From Brachybacterium halotolerans (GTDB lineage: Bacteria > Actinomycetota > Actinomycetes > Actinomycetales > Dermabacteraceae): a stretch of 64,000 nucleotides of DNA. Under the pieces are notes generated by a model. It saw only the letters and a program-made list of their open reading frames with translations, was not told where the DNA came from and made no database searches. The stretch is from assembly GCF_016623465.1 (NCBI RefSeq), contig NZ_JAEDAJ010000002.1:452155-516154 (forward strand), in the 5' to 3' direction. The position numbers and the translations under genes are program-made. Shown piece by piece: positions 7,615 to 23,555 of the stretch (its first letter is position 1; each line of letters opens with the position of its first letter).

Positions 7615-7647
7615 GGGGCGAGCGTACGCGGCACCCGGGCATGAGAG

Positions 7648-7735
7648 GACCCCTCGCGCACCTGCCAGAGCCCACCTGCCCTTGCTGCCGTCAAGCCCTG
7701 GGGGAGTTCAGTGAGGTGACACCGCACGAGGGGTC
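7648..7735 (-). ncRNA. ffs: Signal recognition particle RNA (small bacterial type)
   Basis: Read on the minus strand, this is an 88-nt RNA-like sequence with the hallmarks of bacterial SRP RNA. The ends pair over 9 bases (7735-7727 with 7656-7648), extended by 3 more. The 5' arm contains GTGTCACCTCACTGAACTCC, typical of Gram-positive SRP RNAs, followed by the domain IV strand CCCCAGGG and the opposing AGCAAGGG. Domain IV is the Ffh-binding part. The apical loop reads GCTTGACGGC, so the usual GGAA tetraloop is replaced by TGAC (or a 6-base TTGACG loop). A -10-like TAGAAT lies just upstream on the minus strand (about 7743-7748). The RNA is a core of the SRP that targets membrane proteins. Confidence 0.85.
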
Positions 7736-7966
7736 GCGCACGATTCTAGCGATCCTGCGCCGCGCGTGCACACCCGCCGCCGCGCGGCGTGACGCGGCTC
7801 CCTTCGGCCGCCGCGGACGTGCGGTCCCTGTGCTCTCGCCTCGCGAGAATCCGCCTCCCCGCCAGGCCCTCCGGAGCCGTAGAGTGGTGATGCCGGTCAC
7901 GTCCCGAGGATGCGATGTGCTCCCCGGGCGAGACCACCGATGGAACCGATCTCGACGAGGAGAGTC
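7736..7966. promoter_or_regulatory. Divergent region between SRP RNA and aldehyde dehydrogenase genes
   Basis: This non-coding stretch should carry the SRP RNA promoter on the minus strand and the aldehyde dehydrogenase promoter on the plus strand. Visible hints are TAGAAT near 7745 (minus) and TAGAGT near 7882 (plus). No convincing -35 boxes or operators were found. Together with the SRP RNA it fills the ~350-base gap between the two flanking protein genes. Confidence 0.35.
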
Positions 7967-20111: not shown

Positions 20112-20992
20112 TCAGGGGCGGGCGTCCAGGATCTCCTGGGCGCGCGCGAGGGCGACGTCGACCCCCGCGCGGACCTCGGAGAGTCCCTGTGCGACGGGCA
20201 GCGCGCGCAGCTCGTCGGCGATGATCTCGACTCCCCAGAAGCCGTCCCATCCCGCGTCGATCATCGCCACCACGAACCCCGCCATGTCGAGATCCCCGCG
20301 GCCCGGGAGGCAGCGCGGAGCGACGCCGTCGGCGCCCACTGGCGCGTCCCCGAGCTCGACCACCGCGACCGGGACGCCCTCCAGGAGCGCGGGCAGGAGC
20401 GTGACGTCGTCGTCGCCGGATCTCGCGAGCTGATAGATGTCCACGGCGAGCCCGGCGCGCGGGTGGTCCACGGCGCGGACGAGGTCGACCGCGTCGCCGA
20501 AGGTCGGCAGGTTGGTGTCCGCCATCGCCTCGAGGGCCAGGGTGAGGTCGAAGGCGTCGGCGCGCTCGGCGGTCCGGTGCAGATCCGCGGCGAAGGCCGC
20601 GGGCTCCGGCGCTTCGGAGCGGCCGGCGCCGAGGCGGCATGCGCCGATCTTGAGGGCAGGGGCTCCGAGCTGCGCCGCGGCGTCGAGGAAGTCGTCGAGC
20701 TGACGGTCGGAGGCCGCGCGTGCCGTGCCGCGTTCCCACCAGTCGCTGAGGAACTCGAGCTCGATGCGCTCGATGCCGGCGTCCTCGAGCTGCTCGCGCA
20801 GTCGGGGAAGACCGATCGTGTCGCGCAGCTCCACGAGGTCGGCGTGCTGGATCCCCACTCCCCGCCAGCCCGAGGCGGCGAGCGCCTCGATCCTCTCCGG
20901 GAGAGGCACGGGGCTGCGCTGGTCTGCGTCGCGGGGCCGACGTCCCCTGCCCAGGTCCAGCAGGAGGCCAGCAGGTCGTGGTGGGTGCTCAT
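20112..20992 (-). pseudogene. Sugar phosphate isomerase/epimerase, frameshifted near N-terminus
   Basis: A xylose isomerase-like TIM-barrel protein of ~290 residues. The start MSTHHDLLASCWTWAGDV, from ATG 20992 (GGAGAGG 8 bases upstream), is in one frame. The rest, from about QRSPVPLPERIEALAASGW to the stop at 20112, is in another. One base appears to be missing around 20930-20940 in a G/C run. The body carries family features (GVGIQHADL, IELEFLSDWWERG, ALKIG, LTLALEAMADTNLPTF, VDIYQLARSGDD, GFWGVEII). It may be a pseudogene or a sequencing error. Substrate unknown. Confidence 0.78.
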
Positions 20993-21043
20993 GGTCATTG
21001 CCTCTCCGCGGCGGCAGCGCTGCGATGCGCACTGCCATGGATA

Positions 21044-21057
21044 CGTACGAGTGTACG
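21044..21057. promoter_or_regulatory. Operator-like dyad CGTAC-N4-GTACG
   Basis: Two perfect 5-base arms around GAGT, about 50 bases upstream of the sugar isomerase start. Read on the minus strand it overlaps a TACACT -10-like box. The form resembles sites for GntR or LacI dimers. The regulator is unknown. Confidence 0.35.
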
Positions 21058-21146
21058 AAGGGCGGGTCCGCCACGGCCCTGCCGCGCGCATAGGGAACCG
21101 ACAGCTCGCGTTCAGCGCCTGCCAGGCTGGAGCCGGTTAAGTGTAT

Positions 21147-21248
21147 CCCAGGTGCTGACGGAGCGGCGAGCCACTGAGGAGAGGCTCCCCGCCTGACCCG
21201 CAGCACCGGGGAAAGGGATGGCCCCGGCCCGTGGGGACGGGCCGGGGC
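21147..21248 (+). ncRNA. Candidate structured RNA with intrinsic terminator
   Basis: Three nested or tandem hairpins lie within 102 bases. An outer stem pairs CCC (21147-21149) plus GGTGCTG (21151-21157) with CAGCACC (21201-21207) plus GGG (21208-21210). An inner stem pairs GCGG-C-GAGCC (21163-21172) with GGCTC-C-CCGC (21183-21192) around a 10-base loop ACTGAGGAGA. A separate perfect 12-base-pair hairpin (21221-21232 with 21237-21248, loop GGGG) is followed by GCTTTCTGTT, which looks like an intrinsic terminator on the plus strand. No protein gene follows on that strand, so an independent small RNA is the simplest reading. I could not match it to a named RNA family. A leader on the minus strand is the alternative. 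Confidence 0.45.
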
Positions 21249-21332
21249 GCTTTCTGTTCCGGGGCCCCGATGCCGGGCACGCCCCGTCGGCCGTAGCCGT
21301 TCAGCCGTTCCGCCGAGGGATCGACCGACCGT

Positions 21333-23429
21333 TCAGCCCAGCGTCGCGGGGCGGTCCCAGGCGGTGCCGCGCACGTGCTCATCGAGGAACCCGAGGAACG
21401 TCTCGTACCAGACCTGCGCATTGCCGCGACCGGTGATCCAGTGGCCCTCGTCGGGGAAGTAGAGGAAGCGGTGGCGGGTGCGGCCCTGCTCGTCGCGCGG
21501 CGTGGCGGAGAACTCGTGCAGGTCGTACCAGAGCGCGTGGCCCTGTGCGATCGGCACCCGGTAGTCCTTGTCGCCGTGGATCACGAGCATCGGCACCTGG
21601 ATCTCGGCGACCTCGTCCTTGGGGTTGAAGCGGCTGTTCTGCTCGCGCATCGACCGCTCCCAGCCGGCGTTGTCGGTGGTGCGGCCCATCGAGGCCGTGT
21701 CCCACAGCGAGGCATGGGTGACCACGCAGCGGAAGCGGTCGCCGGTGTGCCCGGCCACCCAGTTCGCCATGTACCCGCCGTACGAGCCGCCCGCGAAGGC
21801 GGTGTGCTCGGCGTCGATGTCCGCGCGGGCGACCGTCGCGTCCGCGAGCGCCATGATGTCGGTGAAGGGGGCGCCGCCGAGCTCGTGCTGGCCGCGGTCG
21901 ATCATCTCCTGCCCGTAGCCGGTGGAGATGGCCGGGTCCGGCAGCAGCACGGCGTAGCCCGCGTCGACGAAGGGACCGGGATTCCAGCGATAGGTCCAGG
22001 CGTTCCACGACCCCCAGGGGCCGCCGTGCGCGAAGACGACCAGCGGGTGCGGGCCCTCTCCCGCGGGCAGACGCAGCCAGGCGCGCAGCGCCGTGCCGTC
22101 CTGGGCGGTGGCGGACACCTCGGTGAGGGGGCCTGGCTGCTCGACGGCGTCGGCGGGGTTCGGAAGATCCGCGACCTCGCCGCTCGCCAGATCGATGCGC
22201 ACGGGGTGCGGGGCGACGGCGATCCCGGAGGCGGAGGCGACCGCCGTGCCGCCCGCGACGGTCAGCTGCGCGAAGGAGAGCTCCTGGTCCGGTCCGCCGG
22301 CGAGCCGGCGCCCGGCGGCGTCGCCGAGGCCGCCGATCCACACGGATCCGCGTCCCTCGTCATCGCCCGCGCCCACGAGGGTGTCTGCGTCGACCCAGGT
22401 GAGGTGGGGGTCCCGGTCCAGCTCGGGCCAGATCTCCTGGCTCTCCCCGGTGGCGAGGTCGAGCACCTCTGTGCGCGAGCGGGCGGAGGCCGTCTGCGTC
22501 CAGGTGCGCTCGCGCGAGATCAGCGCGTGCGTCCCGTCGGGGCTGAACTCGCCGGGCCAGAACTCGACCTCGTTCGTGGCGTCGCGCAGCAGCTGCGGGG
22601 CCTGCGTCCCCGTGAGGTCGAGCAGGTAGAGGCGGCCGACGCCCAGGCGGTCGTCGAGCGAGTCGGTCATCGCGACGAGCGCGCGGCGGCCCTGCCGGTC
22701 CACGCTCCATGCGCTCAGCCGCCCCGGCGGCATCTCCAGGTGCCGGAAGTGGAGGACCTGGCGACGAGGGGCGTCGTCGTCATCGGCCGACGCGGGCTGA
22801 TCGGCCGACAGGGACTGGTCGGTCGAGGCGGACTGGTCGGGCGACACGGACTGATCGGGCGCGGCGGTCGCCTCGGCGGTGAAGAGGTCCTCGGGGAGGG
22901 CCGCCACGGCGAGCACGCTGCGGGCGGGGCCCAGGTCGTGGTCCCAGTGGCGGGTCGGGAAGCCGTCGTGGAGAGCGGCGCTGACCTCTGCCTTCGAGCG
23001 CTCCCGGGAGAGGCGGGCATGCTCTGCCTCGTCGGACGCCTGCGAGTGGACGTCGATCTCGGCGACGAGCACCCCGTCGGTGAGGTGCAGCCCGCCGAAG
23101 CCGCCGGGACGGGAGGCGATCTCCCGAGCCTCTCCGCGCGGGGGCAGGGCCCAGAGCTGAGCGTCGTCGGCCTCCTCGCCGTCCTCCCCCACGCGCCGGG
23201 CGGTGAACAGGGTGGTGCCGTCCTCGGCGAGCACCACGGAGCCCACGGACGCGCTGCCGCGGGTCAGGGGGAGCAGGGAGTCCCCGAGGATCTCCACGAG
23301 CGAGCTGCGATAGGACGCGCCCTTCGCGTCCGGGGCCGAGACCTTGGCGACGATCCTCCCGCCCGGCGTCGTCTCCAGTCCCGCGAGGCGGCGGGCGTCC
23401 AGCAGTGCAGTGATGCTCCGATGCGTCAT
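21333..23429 (-). CDS. S9 family serine peptidase (prolyl oligopeptidase/acylaminoacyl peptidase type)
   Basis: A 698-residue cytosolic peptidase. The N-terminal ~430 residues form a beta-propeller-like region. The C-terminal alpha/beta hydrolase domain has FAHGGPWGSW (oxyanion region), the nucleophile motif GGSYGGYMANW near residue 545, VIHGDKDYRVP with the acidic residue, and the histidine in PDEGHWI. It would cleave short peptides or acyl-aminoacids. Residues ~187-215 hold four 6-residue repeats (DQSVSP-like) absent from typical relatives, inserted in the propeller. The ATG at 23429 gives MTHRSITALLDARRL. It is divergent from the Gln/Pro-rich membrane protein gene. Confidence 0.9.
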   Translation of the reverse strand: MTHRSITALLDARRLAGLETTPGGRIVAKVSAPDAKGASYRSSLVEILGDSLLPLTRGSASVGSVVLAEDGTTLFTARRVGEDGEEADDAQLWALPPRGEAREIASRPGGFGGLHLTDGVLVAEIDVHSQASDEAEHARLSRERSKAEVSAALHDGFPTRHWDHDLGPARSVLAVAALPEDLFTAEATAAPDQSVSPDQSASTDQSLSADQPASADDDDAPRRQVLHFRHLEMPPGRLSAWSVDRQGRRALVAMTDSLDDRLGVGRLYLLDLTGTQAPQLLRDATNEVEFWPGEFSPDGTHALISRERTWTQTASARSRTEVLDLATGESQEIWPELDRDPHLTWVDADTLVGAGDDEGRGSVWIGGLGDAAGRRLAGGPDQELSFAQLTVAGGTAVASASGIAVAPHPVRIDLASGEVADLPNPADAVEQPGPLTEVSATAQDGTALRAWLRLPAGEGPHPLVVFAHGGPWGSWNAWTYRWNPGPFVDAGYAVLLPDPAISTGYGQEMIDRGQHELGGAPFTDIMALADATVARADIDAEHTAFAGGSYGGYMANWVAGHTGDRFRCVVTHASLWDTASMGRTTDNAGWERSMREQNSRFNPKDEVAEIQVPMLVIHGDKDYRVPIAQGHALWYDLHEFSATPRDEQGRTRHRFLYFPDEGHWITGRGNAQVWYETFLGFLDEHVRGTAWDRPATLG
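22797..22868 (-). repeat. 18-bp in-frame tandem repeat within the S9 peptidase gene
   Basis: Four units with an exact 18-base period begin at 22797, 22815, 22833 and 22851. They encode DQSVSP, DQSAST, DQSLSA and DQPASA. The DNA keeps a TCGGYCGA-like core. It looks like a recent local expansion in a surface loop. Confidence 0.75.
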
Positions 23430-23555
23430 GACCAGCAATCCTGCCAGAACGAGTCCGGGCGCGTGGTCGCCTCGCCCCGGTGAGTACGCTCTGTGCTGAC
23501 GCGGCGCCTGGGTACGCTCTGGACCGGAGTGCCGCACGCGCCACGAGGGGGAACC

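Follow-up and report, generated by a model that had tools for sequence, protein, structure and literature searches.

A conserved candidate small RNA of the Dermabacteraceae with a predicted terminator and PhoP-type promoter repeats

Introduction

Little is known about the small RNAs of high-GC actinobacteria. In a 64-kb stretch of the Brachybacterium halotolerans genome, which is the whole of the DNA analysed here and is referred to as the window, two nested stems are followed by a separate hairpin at a place where no protein gene follows on that strand. A first-pass annotation of the window described this arrangement as a candidate for a structured RNA that stands by itself and brings its own terminator. 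The questions are whether it is an RNA gene in its own right, what would switch it on and how it might act. The comparative data described below confirm that observation and largely support that reading. They also go beyond it, adding conserved promoter repeats, a second genomic copy and a spread through the family.

Fold and terminator of the candidate RNA

The candidate small-RNA gene, as modelled with two covariance models (R1 and R2), has 111 bases on the plus strand (21148-21258), both ends being predictions; the window copy scores 96.2 bits against the model (E 2.2e-18). The computed fold of this segment has an energy of -72.3 kcal/mol (z = -5.39), and none of 200 shuffled sequences was equally stable. 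Seven other copies that were folded have z values of -5.1 to -8.0. Both of the stems noted at the outset are present in the predicted fold, namely an outer stem of 10 bp with one bulged A (5' arm 21151-21161, 3' arm 21198-21207) and an inner stem of 9 bp with one C/C mismatch (5' arm 21163-21172, 3' arm 21183-21192). The inner stem closes on a purine-rich loop of 10 bases, ACUGAGGAGA (21173-21182), just as had been described. According to the base-pair probabilities, the UGAGGAG of this loop is 58-64% unpaired in the copies that have the motif.

The outer stem is followed by a linker, GGGGAAAGGGATG (21208-21220), which is predicted to be only 26-52% unpaired because its AAAGGG can pair with the U-rich tail. 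Next comes a perfect 12-bp hairpin with the loop GGGG (21221-21248) and a tail, GCGCTTTCTGTT (21249-21258), which is T-rich as claimed, if modestly so. A terminator scan found this hairpin as the sole terminator-like site within 20900-21450 (one found versus 0.1 expected), and so the gene has its own predicted intrinsic terminator.

Distribution among relatives and covariation

A DNA search of the genus matched 35 of the 38 genomes, and it revealed another copy in the genome of the window itself (G000, contig C19). With model R1 the RNA was found in 43 of the 47 Dermabacteraceae genomes, representing five of the six genera; the other four had no match with R1, nor with R2 when 150 candidates per genome were scored. 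One genome of the family (G044, genus g5), which is 98% complete in 30 contigs, is among those in which neither model found the RNA, and this would imply either a loss or a strong divergence.

Forty copies were aligned with MAFFT, an alignment that is not fitted to the model, and RNAalifold recovers the three helices from it; 97.4% of the cells are paired and 14 of the 26 pairs have double changes. Adding eight copies from other genera led to a set of 49, in which 97.1% of the pair cells are standard and compensatory double changes occur in 19 of the 26 pairs; this larger alignment was built on the model and is biased in its favour, and the unfitted MAFFT alignment agrees. By helix, double changes occur in eight of the ten pairs of the outer stem, in all four modelled pairs of the inner stem and in seven of the 12 pairs of the terminator, where 100% of the cells are paired. 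The covariation score of the 49 copies is 0.309, as compared to 0.119 for shuffled alignments (none of 500 shuffles reaches it), and controls in which the structure was slid along the alignment have 37-45% of cells paired. Because of these comparative data, the stems and the terminator are far beyond chance, and the secondary structure is conserved with compensatory changes, which was the test that the first-pass annotation had proposed for relatives. Together, the fold, the covariation and the family-wide conservation support its claim of an independent structured RNA.

The stems vary in sequence among the copies, and the loop and the linker stay constant. UGAGGAG is kept in 47 of the 49 copies, the linker pattern GGGGA(2-4)GGGAT in all 49 and GUGGGGAC in 47. 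The two most distant copies (L085 and L086) have neither UGAGGAG nor the promoter repeats described below. Copies range from 107 to 119 bases, and as the length differences are not multiples of three, a coding role is less likely. A few matches were not counted as copies: a second match in G008 that consists of the hairpin only, a second match in G010 and a locus (L035) that repeats another (L026). The G010 match lies in a segment (L087 2030-2166, or G010:C1:3940929-3941065) that holds a tRNA-Leu gene (2034-2119) with a terminator directly after it, and this terminator resembles the linker end plus the terminator stem of the RNA.

Outside of the family the picture is different. In an order-wide sample of 396 genomes, in which nine candidates per genome were scored so that distant relatives may be missed, 35 match at E <= 0.001 and 33 of these are inside the family; the two out-of-family genomes have E values of 1.8e-4 and 6.3e-4. 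A search of 23 genomes with R2, again with 150 candidates per genome and including the four family members lacking a match, gave four genomes at E <= 0.1 (the best 0.00135), none of them convincing. Two candidates of the first screen, G176 and G191, were set aside as weak and terminator-driven. With R2 they reach 33-34 bits (E 4e-7 and 5e-7 in 38 kb), and the part that aligns is a GC-rich terminator plus a short chance stem, the inner hairpin being omitted. Four more out-of-family candidates (G051, G054, G057 and G065) were rejected as weak R2 matches. At nine loci that were checked, neither UGAGGAG nor the linker was found in the central 300 bases, where matches near contig ends may lie off-centre. 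A scan of named genomes with an exact pattern retrieved 25 stretches, 24 of them titled Brachybacterium, Dermabacter or Helcobacillus; the single remaining one, from a Flavonifractor bin, was dismissed as chance (11.2 bits). Brachybacterium and Helcobacillus belong to the Dermabacteraceae, and presumably Dermabacter does as well.

That these weak matches align such GC-rich terminators might suggest that the element does no more than terminate transcription from both of two convergent genes, or that it is some other element acting at the DNA level, such as a repeat. However, a terminator would need neither covarying stems upstream of it nor promoter repeats at a fixed distance, and a DNA repeat would hardly be confined to one or two copies per genome. 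Likewise, a 201-base query matched nothing in collections of plasmids or phages, which argues against a DNA-level element and led us to reject a mobile element. We regard a terminator or DNA element as extremely improbable, and an RNA gene in its own right is the reading pursued here.

Genomic setting of the copies

The window copy is the second copy, which is common to four genomes (G000, G012, G034 and G005). In all four it is flanked by an OsmC gene and an S9 peptidase gene. The peptidase gene (21333-23483, minus strand) is the next gene 3' of the RNA and is convergent with it, and no same-strand gene lies directly downstream in the window, in agreement with the original description. A TIM-barrel gene (AP_endonuc_2; 20112-21011, minus strand) lies between the OsmC gene and the RNA in the aligned blocks of G000 and G012 only. 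It is missing at the matching place in G034 and G005, which would imply a gain or a loss. Upstream of this gene, with respect to its minus strand, is a perfect inverted repeat, CGTAC-GAGT-GTACG (21044-21057), that is a possible operator.

When the window is compared with G005, the conserved block begins with the first promoter repeat and ends with the terminator (window 21091-21259; L001 1472-1640). Thus, with the TIM-barrel gene missing from two of the four genomes and this block kept, the RNA is independent of its neighbours. A second pattern leads to the same conclusion: a convergent gene whose product has the motif VFGID lies at most 900 bases after the RNA in 30 of the 49 copies and was not found after the other 19. 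Two predicted VFGID proteins had no Pfam or NCBIfam match.

These neighbourhoods also bear on whether the element could be a cis-acting leader or riboswitch whose attenuator controls the next gene. The order of the parts, aptamer-like stems and then a terminator, is what such a leader would look like. However, the downstream gene in the window is convergent, as is the VFGID gene in the 30 of 49 copies that have it, and there was no Rfam riboswitch match. A leader is thus highly improbable in our opinion, and we continue to treat the RNA as free-standing.

The C19 copy is located between an SBF transporter gene and a DUF2306 gene, and two other genomes (G011 and G032) have two copies each that are close together. 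In a tree of the 113-base RNA, the four window-type copies group with a support of 0.93, and a copy from another genus (L083) joins them weakly (0.86); the RNA is too short for this tree to tell duplication from transfer as the origin of the second copy.

Promoter repeats

The predicted promoter region has a conserved element of the activator type on the plus strand (21091-21115), consisting of three direct repeats that are 11 bp apart. In the window copy these are TAG (21091-21093), CAG (21102-21104) and CAG (21113-21115). A -10-like hexamer, TTAAGT (21137-21142), without a -35 consensus follows at a position that is roughly conserved among the copies. A consensus scan of the region gave no full sigma-70 promoter; the repeats and the -10-like box are conserved at a set distance. 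The layout of the repeats is one that we take to be that of an activator of the OmpR/PhoB family.

A triple of nAG with a period of 11, located 57 +/- 1 bases upstream of the predicted 5' end of the RNA, is present in 47 of the 49 copies and the strict form (YAG three times) is in place in 38 (in the first count of the repeats, anchors were picked among three offsets, 56-58, so as to maximise matches, and a later count was made without that choice). Control periods of 9, 10, 12 and 13 occur in 0-1 of the 49 RNA promoters. With both strands counted, the strict period-11 triple occurs once in the 64-kb window, at 21091, and about 1.9 sites would be expected from base composition. The weight is therefore on the fixed place across the copies, because a single occurrence in the window proves nothing.

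An exact form of the promoter pattern had 12 matches in the 38 genomes of the genus, as compared to one for the reversed control, and judging from their coordinates all 12 are just upstream of the RNA. A relaxed pattern searched in four genomes gave 29, 22, 25 and 21 matches versus 27, 17, 27 and 30 for the reversed control. This is background, and so no further member of a regulon was found. Two sites with two mismatches lie outside of the RNA genes, and neither accompanies a second RNA gene.

A PhoP-type regulator

Which protein might bind these repeats? One study reports that PhoP of Mycobacterium tuberculosis binds 7-bp TCACAGC repeats separated by a strict 4-bp spacer and that it binds three or four tandem repeats more tightly than two (PMC4832192). 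The genome of the window has eight matches to the DNA-binding domain of such regulators (Trans_reg_C). For one of them (G000:C2:60297-61010) the best solved relative is M. tuberculosis PhoP, with 291 bits, and its recognition helix is EVGIVESYISYLRRKID as compared to DVNVVESYVSYLRRKID in PhoP. These data point to a PhoP-type regulator in a genome that bears the RNA. The protein matches all 30 genus genomes searched at E <= 1e-60, and in 28 of these the best place shows 89-100% identity across 234 or more of the 238 residues, whereas in the other two it is partial.

Repeats of the same spacing also precede the gene for this regulator. Of the 30 loci fetched, we examined 28, leaving out the two with partial regulator genes (L254 and L255). 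CAG-N8-CAG is upstream of the phoP-type gene in 26 of these, and CAG-N8-CA(G/A)-N8-CA(G/A/C), again with a period of 11, is there in all 28, although these regions share descent, as do the 49 RNA copies, and so do not count as independent cases. At periods of 9, 10, 12 and 13 the counts are 0, 1, 0 and 0. The own triple of the RNA (YAG-nAG-YAG) occurs in none of the 28 regions, since either the third or the second repeat reads CAA or CAC there. The feature in common is therefore the 11-bp spacing, start to start, and the CA(G) core of the predicted PhoP-type repeats, and not an identical site. Among the eight regulator loci of the genome, only the phoP-type locus has a period-11 triple. Triples of period 12 occur there (L222) and at one other locus (L221) too, and these probably stem from codon rhythm. 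We take the repeats before the phoP-type gene as predicted sites of autoregulation by the same protein that would drive the RNA.

The lack of the RNA's own triple in these 28 regions counts against the PhoP link, and so do three more observations. The first repeat of the window copy is TAG, the place of Asn212 in M. tuberculosis PhoP is taken by a glycine in the phoP-type protein and the genome has a second PhoP-like protein (L221), for which PhoP is also the best relative, with 221 bits.

The region upstream of the phoP-type gene has a peculiarity of its own. In G000, G012 and G034 the repeats lie partly inside a 28-base palindrome, which makes three of the 28 loci examined.

Known RNA families and possible partners

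At gathering score no Rfam family covers the RNA, and at E <= 10 only sub-threshold matches do, which bears out the earlier failure to match it to a named riboswitch or small RNA. The only match in the window at gathering score is the Bacterial small signal recognition particle RNA, elsewhere on the minus strand (7642-7738, 56.3 bits). As for the literature, no such RNA appears in the titles and abstract openings of the open-licence papers listed for Brachybacterium, Dermabacter and Dermabacteraceae, and a term search of the main text of two papers on bacterial RNA discovery (PMC11109978 and PMC8632094) found these taxa unnamed.

Three known RNAs invite comparison. The 6C RNA is, like the candidate, a small structured RNA of actinobacteria. 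Its loops are C-rich, whereas those of the candidate are purine-rich. The sole 6C match in the region has 19.4 bits on the other strand (the gathering score is 47), and 6C (RF01066) had no match in the 47 family genomes under stricter filters. Both membership in 6C and a partnership with it were ruled out by this lack of a match above the gathering score.

RNAs of the CsrB/RsmZ type titrate a protein by means of GGA in hairpin loops, GGA in a loop being the CsrA-type site. The candidate likewise has GGA in its hairpin loop, and most copies have GGGAUG in the linker; however, it has one such loop and not many. CsrA was not found in any of the 47 family genomes in a search whose control was positive in three of 14 named genomes, and so a CsrA sponge was rejected.

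A small RNA that titrates some other protein is a different matter. The docking site could be the linker together with the terminator hairpin (GGGGAAAGGGAU plus the GUGGGGAC loop) or the loop containing GGA. Both the linker (49 of 49 copies) and GTGGGGAC (47 of 49) are conserved beyond what pairing needs, and an exact complement of the linker in the genome of the window occurs only at the two RNA genes. The latter finding fits with titration and led us to reject an antisense target of the linker. Nevertheless, the protein known to bind such sites, CsrA, was not found, as just described, and we consider titration unlikely, if worth keeping in mind, as compared to an RNA that pairs by its loop.

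The purine-rich motifs also suggest a decoy for ribosomes, in which the Shine-Dalgarno-like GAGGAG of the loop and GAAAGG of the linker could capture 16S rRNA by its 3' tail. That tail carries the anti-Shine-Dalgarno sequence, parts of which would be complementary to both motifs. However, any purine-rich stretch would serve this purpose, the loop is GAGGAGA in the window copy and UAAGG or UGAAGG in the two most distant copies, and the linker is predicted to pair in part with the RNA's own tail. A decoy is therefore very improbable.

For possible mRNA targets, the complement of the loop was looked for near start codons. It had 21 matches, some of them overlapping, in each of two genomes, as compared to 55 and 53 in the reversed control. 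A blastn comparison (E <= 1e-15) of 15 of the 21 loci per genome revealed nothing in common.

The third known RNA, Mcr7, is the closest to the mode of action proposed here. It is described as a PhoP-dependent ncRNA of M. tuberculosis that is about 350 nt long and expected from predictions to occur in the M. tuberculosis complex only, and it is proposed to act on an mRNA by a free loop (PMC4038636). The candidate would be similar in being an actinobacterial small RNA with a PhoP-type site, here a predicted one, before its own promoter and in the action suggested for its loop. By that description, the two are set apart by the length of the candidate (about 111 nt), its terminator-ended form and its other loop.

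Proposed mechanism

The computed fold, the conservation throughout the family, the promoter repeats and the repeats of equal spacing and related core before the regulator gene are observations. Judging from these sequence features, we predict, with a probability of about 0.65, that the gene encodes a free-standing regulatory RNA of the Dermabacteraceae that is activated by PhoP and acts in trans, the purine-rich loop being the acting part. The best reading is that it would resemble Mcr7 in mode, and no kinship is claimed. Transcription of the gene, binding by PhoP and the acting role of the loop are what we infer.

The sequence of events might be as follows. A phosphorylated response regulator of the PhoP type would bind the three 11-bp direct repeats, at about -57 to -33, and recruit RNA polymerase to a promoter that has no -35 box. 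An RNA of about 111 bases would then be made, ending at its own terminator. It presumably folds into the two-stem hairpin that exposes UGAGGAG, after which come the conserved linker and the hairpin of the terminator. In the most likely case, the loop would act in trans on mRNAs by pairing with CU-rich stretches in them. Such pairing could either prevent translation or release a ribosome-binding site from a CU-rich partner strand.

A bolder version can be imagined. The RNA may be a main output of a family-wide PhoP-type system, UGAGGAG may mimic a ribosome-binding site and so open mRNAs in which a CU-rich strand covers the site proper, and the linker-terminator module may dock an RNA-binding protein new to actinobacteria. 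This would be a new mode of small-RNA action in a group in which no CsrA was found; we consider all of it together a long shot.

Conclusions

Few small RNAs of high-GC actinobacteria combine, as this candidate does, conservation across a family with a probable regulator and a promoter that lends itself to testing. If the proposal is true, the RNA would constitute a new Rfam family, and the PhoP-type control of a small RNA, which is known from tubercle bacilli, would be open to study in species of Brachybacterium, which are harmless and can be cultured.
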